The position numbers and the translations under genes were made by a program. The notes beneath the pieces are model-generated. The model was given only the letters and a program-made list of their open reading frames with translations. It was not told the origin of the DNA and did not search any database. 20,160 bases of DNA from a virus: IMG/VR virus record IMGVR_UViG_3300020477_001931, positions 1 through 20,160 of that record; one strand, written 5' to 3'. Every line of letters starts with the position of its first letter. Position 1 is the stretch's first letter. This document shows, piece after piece, positions 4,886-20,160 of this stretch.

Positions 4886-4931
4886 GGGGGGCAAAGCCTG
4901 CCCCCCACAAACCCAGACGAGGAGTTGAGAC
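4886..4931 (+). promoter_or_regulatory. Leader hairpin plus start box of array gene 1
   Basis: GGGGGGCA (4886-4893) and TGCCCCCC (4899-4906) form a perfect eight-base stem with loop AAGCC. Fifteen bases later comes the box GGAGTTGAGAC (4921-4931), directly followed by the ATG at 4932. No U tract follows, so this is not an obvious terminator. It is the first copy of the hairpin-plus-box arrangement that precedes every gene in this array. Confidence 0.65.
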
Positions 4932-5297
4932 ATGCTGACAACCGAACCGACCACGCTGCGAAATGGGGCGACTGTGCTGGCCCGCCATCCGAGTAAATCA
5001 CTGGGCTGCGGAGACGTGGTCTTGTGCCAGAGTGGTGCCGAGTTTGTGACGTGGGTCTTGGATTCAGAAGGGCACGCACACTGGGGCCACTATCACCCGA
5101 CGCGGTCTTTCACCGACCAGCCCAACCCGGTCAAGGCAGCCCTACAGCGGGCCGTGGGTGATTTCCTCGACCGAATTGTGGAGCCGAGCAACAAAGAGCA
5201 AACAGCAGAAATCATGTTGCGACACCTCTACAAGCCTGTAGAAGTCGCGGACAAAATCATCTCCGAGATGAGGGATACTGACACAACCCAATCCTGA
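4932..5297 (+). CDS. Hypothetical array protein 1
   Basis: The 121-residue protein is unrecognised. The N-terminal half has strand-like segments (NGATVLARHP, GDVVLCQSG, FVTWVLDSEGHAHWGHY). The C-terminal half is helical (VKAALQRAVGDFLDRIV, and AEIMLRHLYKPVEVADKII). There is no signal peptide or membrane segment. The start is certain because ATG 4932 directly follows the array's GGAGTTGAGAC box. It is the first of seven plus-strand genes that share this box and probably one transcript. The order suggests accessory (host takeover or lysogeny) genes, but the sequence gives no function. Confidence 0.8.
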   Translation: MLTTEPTTLRNGATVLARHPSKSLGCGDVVLCQSGAEFVTWVLDSEGHAHWGHYHPTRSFTDQPNPVKAALQRAVGDFLDRIVEPSNKEQTAEIMLRHLYKPVEVADKIISEMRDTDTTQS

Positions 5298-5389
5298 GCC
5301 GAAACGCCCCACACGGGGCTTCGCGGGGATCCGGCCTACCCCGCCTGATGAGGCAGGCCATTCACTGACCCTGATGAGGAGTTGAGACC
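5298..5389 (+). repeat. Array intergenic element B (diverged copy)
   Basis: This spacer of 92 bases holds three possible stems: GCCCC/GGGGC (5306-5319, loop ACAC), GCGGGG/CCCCGC (5323-5344), and GCCTG/CAGGC just after it. It ends with GGAGTTGAGACC (5378-5389) before ATG 5390. The box is identical to other copies, but the hairpin part has no clear sequence identity with them. It is best seen as a distant member or a functional analogue. Confidence 0.55.
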
Positions 5390-5878
5390 ATGAGTGAGAA
5401 CCAGACACCACCAGAATTCACCAGCTTTGAAATAGGAGCGCGTGCAGAATTCATGCAGTCCGACGGCACACGCTATTTCCTTGATGCAAATGCAAATGAT
5501 CTGCGCAGGGAACCCATTGCGGAGTGGACTGAGGCCCGGGCAGACCTCTTGCTCACGACGCACCACACCATCTCGGGACTCACGGATGAGGGCGGGGTCT
5601 GTAGGCTGTTTGAGTTACAGACTGAAGCATACGCCCGTGAGGTTCTCGGGACGCTGTCTGTAGGGGACGACGGGGCGACAATCTTGATTGAGTCCTACGG
5701 CGAGCTTTTGGAGACCGCTGACGCACTCGGATGGGACTCTGAGTCGCAAGAACACGACTGCGGCTACAAGAGAGATGAGGAAGGCGAGTGGTCTGATTCG
5801 GCAGCCGACGCGCTCGAAGAGGCTGCGGAAGAGTACATCCAATCACGTGGATTGAAGGTTGTCTACGAGGAGGACTGA
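5390..5878 (+). CDS. Hypothetical acidic array protein 2
   Basis: The 162-residue protein is strongly acidic, especially in its C-terminal 60 residues (DSESQEHDCG, EEGEWSDSAADALEEAAEEY, then VVYEED at the end). No family is recognised. The high negative charge is seen in DNA-mimic proteins and other phage inhibitors of host nucleic-acid-binding enzymes, but charge alone does not establish that role. The start follows the array box GGAGTTGAGACC. No membrane segment or Cys cluster is visible. It lies in the probable polycistronic rightward array. Confidence 0.8.
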   Translation: MSENQTPPEFTSFEIGARAEFMQSDGTRYFLDANANDLRREPIAEWTEARADLLLTTHHTISGLTDEGGVCRLFELQTEAYAREVLGTLSVGDDGATILIESYGELLETADALGWDSESQEHDCGYKRDEEGEWSDSAADALEEAAEEYIQSRGLKVVYEED

Positions 5879-5971
5879 GGACCCCCAACCGCGCACACCT
5901 GGAATTGGGTGTGCCGGATTGGTGGCCCTTTTGAGGCTGATTTTTGAAACCCCGAGATAAGGAGTTGAGAC
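5879..5971 (+). repeat. Array intergenic element C, structured repeat
   Basis: The 93-base spacer shows the common plan. It starts with GGACCCCC (5879-5886) right after the stop. The inner stem is GCACACC (5893-5899) with GGTGTGC (5908-5914). An unpaired CGGATT follows, then the outer right arm GGTGGCCC (5921-5928), then an AT-rich tail and the box GGAGTTGAGAC (5961-5971) before ATG 5972. The inner stem sequence differs from those of the neighbouring copies while pairing is kept. Confidence 0.72.
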
Positions 5972-6322
5972 ATGGGACGGTTGGACCAGGTTATGGAAAG
6001 AGTGCGGAACTCTTTTGTTGGTGAGTGCAAAATTGAGGTCACAATTGCGGACACAAAGACAAACAGAGAGGGAGAGTTGGCCTATCAAGAGGGCCATTTT
6101 GCCTACCAGTTGCACAATTTTTTCCGAATGAGGCTGCGTCAGATTGTCGAGCCGCCAGAAGAGTGGTCGTCAAAAGATCTCTGCGAACTGCTGAGGGGAC
6201 TCGACGAGATAAAGACTCACCTGAGCGGGTACCGTCAGCGTGTGCAGGAACGGTATGACGAATTGCTACTCGAAGAGATCATTGAAAGCCGTGTGGAGGA
6301 GGCTTTGCGAGACGCCAACTAA
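5972..6322 (+). CDS. Hypothetical array protein 3
   Basis: The 116-residue protein is mostly helical and charged, and of unknown family. The N-terminus (MGRLDQVMERVRNSF) looks amphipathic. The C-terminal half (LRGLDEIKTHLSGYRQRV, then YDELLLEEIIESRVEEAL) suggests a short coiled coil. The last codons, GACGCCAACTAA, are identical to those of the next gene, so the downstream repeat extends back into the coding end. The start follows the box GGAGTTGAGAC. No catalytic motif is visible. Confidence 0.8.
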   Translation: MGRLDQVMERVRNSFVGECKIEVTIADTKTNREGELAYQEGHFAYQLHNFFRMRLRQIVEPPEEWSSKDLCELLRGLDEIKTHLSGYRQRVQERYDELLLEEIIESRVEEALRDAN

Positions 6323-6409
6323 GGACCGTCCCCCGCCGCTCCTGGCCCTCAGGAGCGTCGGATTGACGGCCCTTGGCCATTTACCCGAGACCTTGAAGGA
6401 GTTGAGACT
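6323..6409 (+). repeat. Array intergenic element D, 87-base structured repeat
   Basis: Outer arms GGACCGTC (6323-6330) and GACGGCCC (6365-6372) pair with one mismatch. They enclose the perfect inner stem GCTCCTG (6338-6344) / CAGGAGC (6350-6356) with loop GCCCT. CGGATT lies unpaired after the inner stem. The tail contains CCTTGGCCATTTACCCGAGA and the box GGAGTTGAGACT (6398-6409). Length (87) and layout equal those of elements E and F. Identity with E continues upstream into the last four codons of the preceding gene. Confidence 0.8.
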
Positions 6410-6766
6410 ATGAGTAAGAAACTGACGTGGAAGCGGACAAATGACGCCGGGCAAACCGAGTCCCACTGTGGCCGGTTCTGGTTTGTTTACACAGACCTCA
6501 GTGTATTTGAAATGTCTGAGCACAACCTTTGTTGCGACGACGCCGCTGATGGTTCCTCCCTCTTCATCCGACTGTGGCACGCAGACACCGGCGTGATTGT
6601 GGGCCACTACGCGACCAAGTCCGAGGCCAAGGCGGCAGCAGAGAAGCACCTCGCCGGGTTTGCTGAAGAGGTGCGGCAATTGCGTCACCGGGTCGTGGAC
6701 CTGGAGGACGCAGTCGAGGAACACGAGGAGGACTGGGAGTCCTTGACCGCCACAGACGCCAACTAA
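6410..6766 (+). CDS. Hypothetical array protein 4
   Basis: The 118-residue protein has a probable N-terminal alpha/beta part with three Cys residues (SHCGRFWFV, EHNLCCDDAADG). A segment DTGVIVGHYATKSEAKAAAE follows, and then a charged coiled coil (about residues 85-110: EEVRQLRHRVVDLEDAVEEH). No family is recognised. The start is set by the box GGAGTTGAGACT. The ending GACGCCAACTAA is shared with the previous gene and belongs to the repeat that follows both. The function is unknown. Confidence 0.8.
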   Translation: MSKKLTWKRTNDAGQTESHCGRFWFVYTDLSVFEMSEHNLCCDDAADGSSLFIRLWHADTGVIVGHYATKSEAKAAAEKHLAGFAEEVRQLRHRVVDLEDAVEEHEEDWESLTATDAN

Positions 6767-6853
6767 GGACCGCCCCCCGCCGCACCTGGTCCGCCGGGTG
6801 CGTCGGATTGGCGGCCCTTGGCCATTACCCGAGACTTTGAAGGAGTTGAGACC
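6767..6853 (+). repeat. Array intergenic element E, 87-base structured repeat
   Basis: It is nearly the same as element D. Outer arms GGACCGCC (6767-6774) and GGCGGCCC (6810-6817) carry a T-A to C-G paired change relative to D. The inner stem GCACCTGG (6782-6789) / CCGGGTGC (6794-6801) has one G-U pair and a different sequence from D. CGGATT is again unpaired, and GGAGTTGAGACC (6842-6853) precedes ATG 6854. Paired changes suggest selection on RNA or single-stranded DNA structure. Confidence 0.82.
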
Positions 6854-7183
6854 ATGACTTTTGCGACACCACACGACAACCACGGGGCTTTTGAAACAAA
6901 CCCCAAGCCAGCCGGACTAACATTCCCCGGCGACGAGCGAGCCTGTTGGACAACGCCCGGTCTCTACGTCACCCGGTTGCGTCTGCTGTCTGATCCGGGG
7001 TTTCCGGCATGGGACGTTAGCTATTGCTGGGGCGAGTTGGATGGTCGGCCAGTGCAGGTGATTCTGCCCTTCAGCCAGCTTCCCAAACGTGGAGTCACTC
7101 GGCGGATCATCTCATGGGCCAAGCACGACGGTGTCTACGCAAAAGCCTTGGGGATTCTGGACAACATTAGTTGCTGCTGTTGA
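6854..7183 (+). CDS. Hypothetical array protein 5
   Basis: The 109-residue protein is unrecognised. It is rich in strand-like segments (GLYVTRLRLLSD, WDVSYCWGELDGRPVQVILP) and ends with a Cys run (SCCC), which could bind a metal or be modified. The RGVTRRIISWAKHDGVYAKALG stretch is basic and helical. An upstream ATG at 6818 is in frame, but it lies inside the repeated spacer, so the start at 6854, immediately after GGAGTTGAGACC, is preferred. It is followed at once by another 87-base spacer. Confidence 0.78.
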   Translation: MTFATPHDNHGAFETNPKPAGLTFPGDERACWTTPGLYVTRLRLLSDPGFPAWDVSYCWGELDGRPVQVILPFSQLPKRGVTRRIISWAKHDGVYAKALGILDNISCCC

Positions 7184-7270
7184 GGACCCCCACCCGTGTC
7201 CACCCCGCAGCGGGGTGGGCCGCCGTGGCGGCCCTTAGGCCATTACCCGAAACCCCATGGAGTTGAGACC
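7184..7270 (+). repeat. Array intergenic element F, 87-base structured repeat
   Basis: This is the third spacer of exactly 87 bases. The inner stem is CCACCCCG (7200-7207) / CGGGGTGG (7211-7218), different in sequence from D and E but strong. GGCGGCCCTTAGGCCATT and ACCCGA are shared with D and E. The box GGAGTTGAGACC (7259-7270) precedes ATG 7271. The outer GGACCCCC arm pairs less well with its partner than in D or E. Confidence 0.76.
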
Positions 7271-7348
7271 ATGACCATCTTTTACGTTTGCTACAGCATA
7301 CTCGCCGCCTTCATCCTTGAAGCCTGGGCGAGCCGGAGTTCAAAATGA
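7271..7348 (+). CDS. 25-residue membrane peptide, possible leader peptide
   Basis: The short frame MTIFYVCYSILAAFILEAW continues to a basic end, ASRSSK. A single hydrophobic segment covers about residues 3-19. It begins exactly after a perfect copy of the array box GGAGTTGAGACC, which is the strongest evidence that it is translated. It sits 115 bases upstream of the serine recombinase, and its last codons include CCGGAGTT, which can pair with the downstream sequence that could mask the recombinase start. It may be a small membrane protein, a leader peptide, or both. A type I toxin-like peptide is a further possibility without direct evidence. Confidence 0.68.
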   Translation: MTIFYVCYSILAAFILEAWASRSSK

Positions 7349-7463
7349 TTCAAGGACAGCCAGCGGCAGCGGCTGGGGAGCTAGCTCAAGAGTTGGGGCC
7401 AATCTCAACTCCGGCCCCCTCTCGAGTCGCTGGCTGTCCGTTTTCCCCGAGAGGAGTTGAGAT
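7349..7463 (+). promoter_or_regulatory. Structured leader of the serine recombinase with start-box complement
   Basis: GGACAGCCAGCG (7354-7365) and CGCTGGCTGTCC (7428-7439) form a perfect 12-base stem, followed by GTTTTCC. Inside lies ATCTCAACTCC (7402-7412), an exact 11-base complement of the recombinase start box GGAGTTGAGAT (7453-7463). The same segment can instead pair with GAGTTG just upstream (7391-7396 region) or, as AACTCCGG (7407-7414), with CCGGAGTT (7333-7340) at the end of the leader peptide gene. These exclusive pairings resemble a translational attenuator. An alternative view is a weak intrinsic terminator with four U residues. Confidence 0.68.
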
Positions 7464-8237
7464 ATGACCGTCAAGTGGACAACAAAAGTGGTGAGCTATC
7501 AGCGGTTTTCTGACCGCCGCAATGCTGACCAGTGCGAGTCAAATGAGGCCCAGCGGGATTTCATCAAGGAGTTCTGTGACGAGAAGGGCTGGCAAATTGT
7601 CGAGAGCTTTTCCGACGAGCGGAAGTCTGGTCGCGGCAAGCAGAACGCAACCAACCGAGACGAGTTGGACCGGCCTGGACTCTGGGCTGCGGTGGACGCA
7701 ATCAAGCCGGGCTACACGCTGGTCGCGTGGCGACCTGACCGCATTGCTCGCGACGTGTTCCTCGACGAGCTGGTGCGTCGGCAGGTCGAGAAGGCCGGTG
7801 GCCGAGTGGTCACCGTGCTGGCCAACGTCGAGGGCGACACGCCTGAGGCCAGCATGATGCGGACTATCCTCGCTGCGTTCTCGCAATACGAGCGAGACGT
7901 GATCAGCGTCCGCACGTCTGCGGCCATGCAGCGGCATCAGGCCAACGGGCGGCGCATGACCAGTTTCCGGTCTGTTCCCTACGGCTTCCGGCCTTGCCCT
8001 CGCGACCTGACCCTGATGGAGGAGGACCCTGAAGAGCAGGCCATCATTGATGTGATCATTGATATGTTCCGCACCAAGCACCCAATCAAGGATATTGTCC
8101 GCCACCTGGAGGATATGGAGACGCCAACCCGTGCCGGCAATGGCATATGGTATCCGCAGGCCGTCCGACGCATCCTCAAGCGTGCTGGCGAGTACCTGAC
8201 TCCGGCGGAGCGCAAGGAGCGTGACGCCAAGGTCTAA
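7464..8237 (+). CDS. Serine recombinase (resolvase/invertase-type catalytic domain)
   Basis: The 257-residue product is a site-specific serine recombinase. The catalytic Ser is S16 in YQRFSDRRN. Other landmarks are NEAQRD (27-32), WRPDRIARD (89-97, active-site Arg residues), and YERDVISVRT (142-151, the start of the long helix). PYGFR (172-176) marks the beginning of the recombinase DNA-binding domain. It is shorter than large serine integrases (usually about 450-600 residues) and lacks the zinc ribbon and coiled coil. It closes the rightward array and ends just before an intrinsic terminator. A separate tyrosine integrase exists, so this enzyme probably performs another reaction, such as inversion, resolution or cassette exchange. 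Confidence 0.9.
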   Translation: MTVKWTTKVVSYQRFSDRRNADQCESNEAQRDFIKEFCDEKGWQIVESFSDERKSGRGKQNATNRDELDRPGLWAAVDAIKPGYTLVAWRPDRIARDVFLDELVRRQVEKAGGRVVTVLANVEGDTPEASMMRTILAAFSQYERDVISVRTSAAMQRHQANGRRMTSFRSVPYGFRPCPRDLTLMEEDPEEQAIIDVIIDMFRTKHPIKDIVRHLEDMETPTRAGNGIWYPQAVRRILKRAGEYLTPAERKERDAKV

Positions 8238-8253
8238 CAGGCGAGCCGCGCCG

Positions 8254-8283
8254 AACCGGGGTCAGCAATGGCCCCGGTTTTTT
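8254..8283 (+). terminator. Intrinsic terminator of the rightward array
   Basis: AACCGGGG (8254-8261) and CCCCGGTT (8272-8279) pair around a ten-base loop and lead into six T residues (8278-8283). It starts 16 bases after the recombinase stop. The opposite strand lacks a T run after the stem, so it serves the plus strand. It overlaps the stop codon region of the convergent metallophosphoesterase gene. Confidence 0.88.
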
Positions 8284-9151
8284 ATTGCGCCCATGTAATG
8301 TCATAGCAAACCTGGGCCAGCTTGTTGTGCCACCAGAACCTGAGCCAAGCCGCCCCAATGGGTTTCGGCGGCGCACCCCGCTCGACGTGCCAGCCACCGT
8401 ACCCGTCACCGTATTCCTCTTTGTACGTCGGGACCACGACGTGTGTCTGGGTGTCGTGGTAGACCTTGCCGCCGGAGTTGATACGCACCCGTTGCAGGTC
8501 CAGGGTCCAACGCTCGTGGATGTGGCCACTCACGACCAGGTGGGCGTCGGGCAGATATGTGGCTCGCCGGTTGGTCTGGATAACCCCCTTGGTGACCGGG
8601 CCACCGCCGCCGTAGCCATGCGAATAGTTGAGCAGGACCGCCTTGGTGGCACCGCTGCCACCCCAGTCGAAGAGGAACCGCACCCAGCCACCGTACCCGC
8701 CGCAGCAGATGTTGCTGCCCGTCCGGTCATTCAGTATCCCGACCAGCCGCTCGGTCAGATGTGTCTCGTGCCGTTTGCGAATAGCCTCTTCATGATTGCC
8801 GACTCCCAGCACAATCATGTTCTTAGTCCACGGCTCGAAGAAGTCAGCCGCCGTGCCGACCAGTGCGTCAAGGTAGCTGTCCACCTGATGCTCCGGTCTC
8901 ACATCAGACTTGCTGGACCTCTTGTCATACTTGCCCTGCATAGCACAGAACAGGTCACCAATGTCTATCACCCCAGCGTTCCGTTTGACGGCCTCCTCCA
9001 GGTGGTCCTTTTGCAGGTCGTGGTTGCTCTTCGGGTTGTCCCAATGGCGGTCACCGGAGAGCAGAAACCACTGCTCCCAGTCGTTACGTCGCGAGCCATC
9101 CACCCGTACCTGGATGACATTGCGGCCCTGTTTTTCTACCTTCCAGGTCAC
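8282..9151 (-). CDS. Calcineurin-like metallophosphoesterase
   Basis: The 289-residue product has the ordered metal-binding motifs of this superfamily: GDRHWDN (about 33-39), IGDLF (64-68), GNHEE (118-122), YSHGYG, and SGHIHERW near the C-terminal third. Enzymes of this type cleave phosphodiester or phosphomonoester bonds using two metal ions. Phage members can process nucleic acids or nucleotides, but the substrate here is unknown. I choose GTG at 9151 because it overlaps the upstream stop as GTGA, with GGAGG seven bases before it. A longer frame to 9211 lies inside the previous gene. It is the last gene of the minus operon. Confidence 0.88.
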   Translation of the reverse strand: MTWKVEKQGRNVIQVRVDGSRRNDWEQWFLLSGDRHWDNPKSNHDLQKDHLEEAVKRNAGVIDIGDLFCAMQGKYDKRSSKSDVRPEHQVDSYLDALVGTAADFFEPWTKNMIVLGVGNHEEAIRKRHETHLTERLVGILNDRTGSNICCGGYGGWVRFLFDWGGSGATKAVLLNYSHGYGGGGPVTKGVIQTNRRATYLPDAHLVVSGHIHERWTLDLQRVRINSGGKVYHDTQTHVVVPTYKEEYGDGYGGWHVERGAPPKPIGAAWLRFWWHNKLAQVCYDITWAQ

Positions 9152-9501
9152 TCGGAATCCTCCGGCACCAACACAATTCTTTGGCGAGCCTCGTGATCTG
9201 TCAGAAGCCACTCGCTGATCATGGCAGCAATCACGTTGATCATCACCTGGAGCATCACGGCCAAAAATACGGACTCAATAAAGCCTTTGGGCTTGGGTTT
9301 GTACCGCCGCCGCAGCCACTTCTTGAGAGCCGCCGCACACTTCTTGTCCTTGGTTCCCCAGCCGAAGTGTGCCCACCACTCTATGCTCAGTTGTGTGATC
9401 TCATTCGCGTGACGACCACGGTGGCCGGTTTGCCAGCCGGTCTCTCGCTGCACCCAGTACTGGACCGCCGCGAGACTTTGACCATGTGGCCGACGGCTCA
9501 C
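9148..9501 (-). CDS. Small basic protein with one membrane segment
   Basis: The 117-residue protein has a basic N-terminal part (KKWLRRRYKPKPKG near 63-74). A hydrophobic segment follows at about 74-100 (FIESVFLAVMLQVMINVIAAMI), and then an acidic tail ending LVPEDSE. No family is recognised. GTG 9501 overlaps the upstream stop as GTGA, and the gene's own stop overlaps the next GTG, so translation is probably coupled through three genes. The location in the lysis-like operon makes a membrane or structural function plausible, but nothing specific is visible. Confidence 0.7.
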   Translation of the reverse strand: MSRRPHGQSLAAVQYWVQRETGWQTGHRGRHANEITQLSIEWWAHFGWGTKDKKCAAALKKWLRRRYKPKPKGFIESVFLAVMLQVMINVIAAMISEWLLTDHEARQRIVLVPEDSE

Positions 9502-18892: not shown

Positions 18893-18920
18893 AAAAGTGT
18901 GGTCACCTGACCACACTTTT
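18893..18920. repeat. Inverted arm-site pair overlapping the integrase leader
   Basis: AAAAGTGTGGTCA and TGACCACACTTTT are perfect 13-base arms separated by CC. Each half is the arm motif found three times left of the core. The right half ends four bases before the integrase ribosome site (GGAG), so bound integrase could also reduce its own expression. Confidence 0.8.
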
Positions 18921-18936
18921 GAAAGGAGAGTCTGCT

Positions 18937-20160
18937 ATGCGTATTCCAGAACTCAAGAAACACACCTCCGGCCGAGCATTCGTCCGCGTCCAAAAAAACG
19001 GAACGCGGAAGGATTACTATTTCGGGGTGCACGGCACTCCCGAGGCCGAGACCAAATACAAGCAGTGGCTCGCTCGCCACATGGCTGGCATTCCTCACCC
19101 CGAGGATGAGACCTGCGGCAAGAAGGTCGCCCAGGTCGTCTCATTCTACCTCGACTGGATTCACGACGAGGGGCTGGTCTCCGAGGGGGAGCACTACCAG
19201 ATCCGGCACACCCTTGACGTTGTGTGCGAGCACTACGGCTCGCTGCCGGTCGAGAAGTTTTCAGCCGAGGAACTGAGCGACCTGCGAAAAGTTTTCCAGT
19301 CGCGGTACACCCACAGAACCGCCACCCAGAAACTCGGCCGCATCAAGAAGATGTTCCGAAAGTGCCTGGAGAAAAAGAAGAGCACTGGCGTGACTGGCGA
19401 GCAGGTCAACGAGCTGCTCCTGGTCGAGGGCGTCCACAAGGACAAGCCCGGCGTCAGGAACAGTCGCGAGGTTCCGGCTGTGGCCTGGACCGAGGCGAGC
19501 AAGCTGATGCCCTTCCTGTCACCAGTGGTCTCGGCATTGTGCAAGGTGCAATTCCTTTGCGGCCTACGGCCAACCGAGGCTTGCGTCATGACGCTCGACC
19601 AGATGGACACCAGCGGTGACATCTGGACCTACCAGCCCGACCAGCAGAAGACCGGCCACCGTGGCTGGAAGCCAGCGTCGGCTGTGCCGCCGGTAGCCCA
19701 GAAGATTCTTGAACCGTTCCTCGACCGAGCACCCAGTGAGTTCCTGTTCAAGCCGGCAGAGGCTGTTGCGTGGAAGATGGCTCGCGACTCGTACTATCGC
19801 ACCACCAAGGTGTACCCGAGCGAGGTCAAGCGGGTGCAAGCGGCGAGGAAGAAACGCAAGGCCCGTGGCGTGAAGCGGGCGGAGCACTACACCGCCAGCA
19901 CCTACGGTGGTGCCTTGAAGCACGGCTTCCGAGCCGCCGAGGAGGCTGGCCTGACGCTGGAACGCTGGTCACCCAACCAACTGCGTCACGGTATAGCCAC
20001 GCTCGTCGCCCACCAGCCGGGGCTGGGCCAAGAAGCGGCCCAGGCGTACCTCGGGCACGCTCACCTCTCGACGACTCAGGTCTACGTCGAGAAACAAAAG
20101 AGCAAGGTCATCAGCGTGGCCACGGAGCTGGAGCCACTGCTGGCCGAGCTGGTCACATAA
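18937..20160 (+). CDS. int: Tyrosine recombinase, phage integrase
   Basis: The 407-residue product integrates and excises the phage at attP/attB. An N-terminal arm-binding-type region (RAFVRVQKNGTRKDYYFG) and a SAM-like core-binding domain (about 60-150) precede the catalytic domain. Catalytic residues are R211 in FLCGLRPTEA, a Lys in QKTGHRGW (about 238), R350 and H351 in PNQLRHGIAT, H374 in LGHAHLSTT, and Y383 in VYVEK. The usual first His of HxxR is Asn, as I recall from planctomycete integrases. ATG 18937 follows GGAGAG. The gene ends on the last base of the window and lies directly beside the arm repeats it probably binds. Confidence 0.93.
   Translation: MRIPELKKHTSGRAFVRVQKNGTRKDYYFGVHGTPEAETKYKQWLARHMAGIPHPEDETCGKKVAQVVSFYLDWIHDEGLVSEGEHYQIRHTLDVVCEHYGSLPVEKFSAEELSDLRKVFQSRYTHRTATQKLGRIKKMFRKCLEKKKSTGVTGEQVNELLLVEGVHKDKPGVRNSREVPAVAWTEASKLMPFLSPVVSALCKVQFLCGLRPTEACVMTLDQMDTSGDIWTYQPDQQKTGHRGWKPASAVPPVAQKILEPFLDRAPSEFLFKPAEAVAWKMARDSYYRTTKVYPSEVKRVQAARKKRKARGVKRAEHYTASTYGGALKHGFRAAEEAGLTLERWSPNQLRHGIATLVAHQPGLGQEAAQAYLGHAHLSTTQVYVEKQKSKVISVATELEPLLAELVT

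Follow-up and report, generated by a model that had tools for sequence, protein, structure and literature searches.

Seven consecutive + strand genes of a viral DNA stretch carry the same 10-nt sequence (GGAGTTGAGA, hereafter the box) directly in front of their ATGs, and the only inverted copy of this box is predicted to lie in the apical loop of a long hairpin upstream of the seventh gene, which encodes a serine recombinase. We consider it probable that this hairpin (7354–7439) is an antisense RNA element of a phage regulon that would block translation start at the boxed gene set, a reading that rests on sequence and calculated folds. A start box combined with one antisense loop is most likely a recurrent phage design, of which this stretch is one member. 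The stretch analysed here, referred to as the window, comprises positions 1–20,160 (20,160 nt) of the IMG/VR record IMGVR_UViG_3300020477_001931.

Start boxes and the proposed antisense hairpin of the window

An exact search of the window for GGAGTTGAGA gave seven + strand matches (Table 1). All of them end 1–2 bases 5′ of an ATG, and these ATGs open seven successive ORFs of the + strand. The boxes contain the Shine-Dalgarno (SD) core GGAG and, as read from the sequence, overlap the SD position of the seven phage genes. The single inverted GGAGTTGAGA was found at 7403–7412 with no further exact copy in the window, and the reversed GGAGTTGAGA pattern used as a control gave no match there. An earlier note on this DNA had described the sequence in front of the recombinase gene as a start box of that gene and had paired it with the anti-box upstream. 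The pairing was confirmed, with all 11 bases of ATCTCAACTCC (7402–7412) complementary to GGAGTTGAGAT (7453–7463). However, the box turned out not to be recombinase-specific, GGAGTTGAGA being common to seven genes.

Table 1 Positions of the boxes, the antisense hairpin, and adjoining features in the window.
Feature	Position	Strand	Basis and remarks
Start box copy 1 (GGAGTTGAGA)	4921–4930	+	5′ of gene 4932–5297; exact match and ORF list
Start box copy 2	5378–5387	+	5′ of gene 5390–5878; exact match and ORF list
Start box copy 3	5961–5970	+	5′ of gene 5972–6322; exact match and ORF list
Start box copy 4	6398–6407	+	5′ of gene 6410–6766; exact match and ORF list
Start box copy 5	6842–6851	+	5′ of gene 6854–7183; exact match and sequence
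Start box copy 6	7259–7268	+	5′ of 25-residue gene 7271–7348; exact match
25-residue hydrophobic peptide gene (MTIFYVCYSILAAFILEAWASRSSK)	7271–7348	+	Boxed array member; translation
Antisense hairpin	7354–7439	+	MFE folds: outer stem of 14 bp, 7354–7367/7426–7439; inner stem 7395–7400/7413–7418; side hairpin 7371–7386
Anti-box (ATCTCAACTCC)	7402–7412	+	In 12-nt apical loop 7401–7412 (MFE); complement of all seven boxes
Start box copy 7 (GGAGTTGAGAT)	7453–7463	+	5′ of serine recombinase; exact match
Serine recombinase, 257 aa	7464–8237	+	Resolvase domain PF00239, 5.4e-26; short Recombinase-domain match PF07508, 4.4e-5 (Pfam); PHROG
Terminator-like hairpin	8253–8280	+	3′ of recombinase

The short peptide gene upstream of the hairpin, previously taken as a leader, has its own box and looks like one more gene of the array. 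Because of this box and the hydrophobic product, we read the 25-residue ORF as an array gene and not as a sensor leader. Four intergenic regions of the array (5879–5975, 6323–6415, 6767–6859, and 7184–7276) share a post-stop hairpin in which four pairs are changed on both sides. At the corresponding place 5′ of the recombinase gene stands the antisense hairpin, which is longer and is the sole anti-box site. In three of the four regions with the shared hairpin, an TTACCCGA-like motif comes next, followed by the box; similar TACCC motifs stand 5′ of three boxes of L013, a record described below.

The 12-nt stem 7354–7365/7428–7439 reported earlier was present and perfect, and it reached 14 bp in the fold. 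The MFE of 7271–7480 was −81.3 kcal/mol against a shuffle mean of −70.3 kcal/mol (z −2.2), indicating that this region folds somewhat better than its shuffles. An alternative inner fold, in which 7390–7397 pairs with 7404–7411, was just 0.8 kcal/mol worse than display of the anti-box in the loop. This pairing won over loop display in a ±40 nt fold and when the bases up to 7362 or up to 7366 were withheld. Computed duplexes between the loop and the boxed starts had energies of −17.3 to −18.8 kcal/mol at all seven starts, compared with −0.5 to −11.5 kcal/mol at the 18 unboxed starts scored; by calculated energy, therefore, the loop favours boxed over unboxed starts. For the six upstream boxed starts, the net loop/start energy was −4.4 to −9.6 kcal/mol, with opening costs and a further penalty of 4.1 kcal/mol included. 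Rfam covariance models gave no match in the window at gathering level and none in 7150–7500 at E up to 1. The exact stem pattern of the antisense hairpin had 0 matches in viral contigs, and the intergenic DNA had no match in INPHARED.

The recombinase shares just ~28% identity with phage serine integrases. The window encodes both this short 257-aa protein and a tyrosine integrase (18919–20160). The − strand gene at 8282–9211 encodes a widespread phage protein (PHROG DNA repair exonuclease), and a relative of it is encoded in all 257 of the 257 pattern-matched viral-contig stretches. The idea that the recombinase shuffles cassettes in the manner of an integron was abandoned for want of evidence.

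Inverted box copies in other phages

The same box was found in L013, an IMG/VR record of 74,578 bases (also listed as L157), which carries four GGAGTTGAGA boxes and one inverted copy over its whole length. A 12-bp hairpin displays the inverted box as its loop. It follows the boxed genes and is flanked by a + strand gene whose end is at 6676 and a − strand gene whose end is at 6730. Since these two flanking genes are convergent, the opposite strand would display the box itself, which counts against an antisense role of this hairpin. One boxed gene encodes a clamp loader, for which a search for relatives returned L013 alone, and among the start boxes of this record there is a gradation towards looser SD variants. 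A serine recombinase, judged by eye to be resolvase-like, is encoded at 7884–8942 of L013, 1.2 kb beyond the antisense hairpin; each of the two GGAGTTGAGA arrays found in this analysis has a serine recombinase nearby. Two GGAGTTGAGA pattern scans of viral contigs gave mostly single chance-like sites, with four sites only in L013 and two in tandem in L030. The two − strand copies of L030 are 69 nt apart and represent a tandem duplication of the box and a short start region (AAGGAGTTGAGACAATG). The pattern scan of genome contigs gave 16 single sites scattered over unrelated taxa and hence no host signal.

A repeat of this kind has been described in cluster K mycobacteriophages. Their start-associated sequence (SAS) is a repeated asymmetric box a few bases 5′ of many starts that extends beyond the SD core, and the genes preceded by it belong to the non-structural half (Pope et al. 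2011, PMC3203893). One SAS in each of Anaya, Adephagia, Angelica, and CrimD has the opposite orientation and is not obviously at a gene start (PMC3203893). That study left open whether the SAS partner is RNA or protein; its SAS section treated the inverted site as an exception and proposed no antisense role for it (PMC3203893). A 2024 paper still describes the role of SAS as unknown (PMC11373665). The window resembles this system in having an asymmetric repeat in one orientation 5′ of many starts (seven at seven consecutive starts in the window) and, as in the K1 phages, one inverted copy away from gene starts. In contrast, the window box GGAGTTGAGA does not fit the SAS consensus GGGATAGGAGCCC. 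The SAS system also includes ESAS, 17-bp inverted repeats with a promoter; covarying hairpins of RNA type are present in the window intergenics.

In the K1 phages, we found 13–18 SAS and one inverted copy, which a conserved hairpin carries in its loop. For GGGATAGGAG, both Anaya and Adephagia gave 14 forward copies and one reverse copy, the reverse copy lying in a 10-nt loop of a GC-rich hairpin in Anaya and likewise in Adephagia. The noncoding stretch around this anti-SAS hairpin matches 177 phage records, and the 60-nt hairpin itself matches 121. Among 24 aligned phages, the loop was exact in 12, a share biased upward because part of the sample was picked by a query containing the loop; it was diverged in five (Hammy and Ekdilam; Unicorn and Shadow1; Shandong1) and absent in seven (Pixie, Yuna, LeMond, SirPhilip, Keshu, Pharb, and TribleTrouble). 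GGGATAGGAG was kept despite a diverged loop, at least in Hammy (15 copies), Unicorn (15), and Shandong1 (13). In an alignment of 14 K1 hairpins, the loop was identical in 12, and 97.6% of stem cells paired, compared with 38–54% when slid. Only two pairs were changed on both sides, a number reached in 57 of 500 shuffles; with so few two-sided changes, the K1 stem is well kept and its covariation modest. Whole cluster K records had a reverse SAS in 5 of 16 cases and none in the other 11, and in ZoeJ the reverse SAS is a genuine start box belonging to a leftward gene. No inverted copy in a loop was present in Pixie, ZoeJ, and most other sampled K phages, which have 11–18 SAS. The existence of such boxed phages suggests that the antisense element is not obligatory, or that the partner has diverged or is host-encoded. 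A search of the K1 stretch with Rfam found no family at gathering score and no B11/6C match; five weak matches (E up to 1) were obtained, none over the anti-SAS hairpin.

The anti-SAS of Adephagia maps to 58685, between the end of gene 92 (58446) and the start of gene 93 (58879), and a conserved TAGACT stands ~100 nt 5′ of it. Late transcription of Adephagia appears to begin between these two genes (PMC11373665). In the fold of the 291-nt leader, the anti-SAS stays in a loop, and we infer that the K1 late transcript carries antisense to early start sites. The conserved noncoding stretch matched in 177 mycobacteriophage records, located at 26650–27070 of L174 (59649–60069 of Anaya), is structured, with several hairpins and a conserved TGGCTGGTCACC, and is probably the late leader. 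A search of the open-access literature yielded no report of an antisense partner of SAS or of phage RNAs acting on repeated RBSs.

Further cases were sought with a survey in which the box was not chosen beforehand: 10-mers repeated 5′ of at least four distinct ORFs were collected, and inverted copies were then sought. This stricter scan replaced an earlier loose hairpin/box survey that was too noisy. It covered 126 sources (125 loci of at least 7 kb and the window), with a second round on 57 loci added later, each 6 kb or longer. Repeated start words were found in 11 of the 126 sources, and the window, L013/L157, the K phages, and L061 were returned as cases with inverted copies; L094 was set aside for its low-complexity word. 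The second round listed three sources, L213, L221 (the L048 record), and L247 (the L094 record).

The L061 record has 10 AAAACCTAA boxes and one complement, which is located directly 5′ of a strong terminator-like hairpin and 3′ of a structural operon with head protease and portal genes. In L213, whose neighbouring protein is 89% identical, the complement stands at the orthologous place with a single change, and a G.U pair preserves the pairing. A shorter complement is retained in L067, where it adjoins a terminator, and the examined stretch of L065 lacks both the box and the complement. The L061 case is weaker because its word is AT-rich and the reversed 9-mer, used as a control, matched three times in the record. 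Its host may be a member of Bacteroidota, a guess from AT-rich SD-less starts and from motifs resembling TANNTTTG, which we take to be a consensus of that group. Unrelated viral contigs contain further start-associated boxes: L048 has four − strand copies of GAACCCTAGA 5′ of starts, and L140 has six − strand copies of GCAAACTAAT, both with no inverted copy in the whole record.

The number of inverted copies expected on one strand of the sequence examined was 0.035 for the window, 0.021 for L157, 0.0037 for Anaya, and 0.074 for L061, and one was seen in each. A random 10-nt site fell in a hairpin loop with a closing stem of 5 bp or more at 1.15% of the 1824 window positions, 0.7% of the 1867 L157 positions, and 0.4% of the 2519 Anaya positions (overall range, 0.4–1.4%). 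These chance figures are rough and partly post hoc, yet they multiply across unrelated phages.

Alternative explanations of the hairpin

The earlier note had raised a possible translational attenuator of the recombinase. In such a cis attenuator, acting on the recombinase alone, translation of the 25-aa peptide would switch the anti-box/box pairing against other stems. The complementarity does adjoin the recombinase start, and competing pairings are present. GAGTTG (7390–7395) complements CAACTC (7406–7411), as had been stated, and of the pairing claimed between the anti-box and the end of the peptide gene, the arms 7332–7347/7400–7415 do pair at 81%, but pairing of 7333–7340 with 7407–7414 costs 15.3 kcal/mol. 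When the folding of 7271–7480 suggested as a check was performed, the nested pairing 7402–7412/7453–7463 was 13.6 kcal/mol worse than the best fold (−67.7 vs −81.3 kcal/mol). It was 18.8 kcal/mol above the best fold in 7349–7480, 10.7 kcal/mol worse in 7363–7480, where the withheld bases up to 7362 stand for those covered by a ribosome that has reached the peptide stop, and 8.6 kcal/mol worse in 7367–7480. No competitive, exclusive SD-masking stem was thus found in these four contexts. The cost arises from geometry, since the nested pairing crosses the 14-bp stem and the two could coexist solely as a pseudoknot; one between the loop 7401–7412 and 7453–7463, 13 nt past the stem, is conceivable. 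ermC-type attenuators combine a short upstream ORF with alternative pairings near the SD, whereas in the window a mutually exclusive stem over the SD is strongly unfavourable and seven genes share the targeted box. The peptide, itself boxed, has no obvious regulatory codon run; no close relatives of the recombinase with homologous leaders were found in viral or genome contigs; and in unrelated phages of like design, the antisense copy lies outside the leaders of boxed genes. Because the box is common to seven genes and the pairing costs 13.6 kcal/mol, a leader-peptide attenuator of the recombinase only is not supported, and we regard it as quite improbable. What stands of the attenuator claim is an RNA element that is predicted to be able to mask a start site by pairing.

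It is unlikely, in our judgment, that the hairpin is an ordinary intergenic one serving termination, RNA processing, or stability, with its inverted box derived from template switching or chance. The covarying post-stop hairpin of four other array intergenics (four two-sided pairs) and the partial sense copy GAGTTG adjoining the anti-box fit such an origin, but the exact 10-mer was seen once where 0.035 copies were expected, and a single looped inverted copy is also present in L013 as well as in the K1 phages, whose box is a different one. The long perfect inverted repeat adjoins a serine recombinase gene, and 1.2 kb beyond the hairpin of L013 there is likewise a gene for a resolvase-like serine recombinase, as might be seen if the hairpin were a DNA-level recombination or binding site of the enzyme and the box a part of a repeated DNA site. 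However, the boxes lie 1–2 bases 5′ of ATG with the SD core GGAG included, and in Anaya, whose design is alike, the integrase annotated in the examined stretch is of the tyrosine type; we consider a DNA site very unlikely.

Proposed action of the antisense loop

As an antisense element, the RNA of the hairpin may stay in the polycistronic transcript or be cut out. Its loop would pair in trans with the seven box start sites, at the recombinase start perhaps as a cis pseudoknot, and loop–box pairing would keep ribosomes off, so that the boxed genes would be turned down together. We infer production of the RNA, its pairing in the cell, repression and not activation, and the timing of its action. 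In K1 and the L061 clade, the element is part of the late (structural) transcript and would be a late-to-early off switch. In the window and L013, it shares the strand of the boxed genes, which suggests feedback. A broader reading, which we put forward tentatively as a plausible one, is that the boxes are docking sites for phage antisense RNA that were independently invented in several lineages with different boxes; the loop or seed carried by the leader or 3′ end of the late K1/L061 transcript would silence early genes at translation, and that of the window and L013 would act in feedback.

The proposed element has partial counterparts among known RNAs. The c4 antisense RNA of phages P1 and P7 is cut from a longer transcript that runs in the direction of the operon it targets and comes from the leader of that operon; it acts on a single target region and is not known to act on a multi-gene box. 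6C/B11 of mycobacteria is host-encoded with C-rich generic loops, and its targets are not known to carry a dedicated repeated box. In this sRNA, a loop of a structured RNA pairs with the RBSs of many mRNAs and represses them, which shows that the repression of many genes by one RNA through loop-to-RBS pairing is workable (PMC10470900). The window likewise has a loop complementary to several RBSs (−17.3 to −18.8 kcal/mol at seven of seven), but no Rfam sRNA family match at gathering level. For the role of SAS in mycobacteriophages, the window has pointed to a concrete candidate, namely a single antisense loop in each genome. If the antisense reading is true, one phage RNA and a common address label would control many genes.
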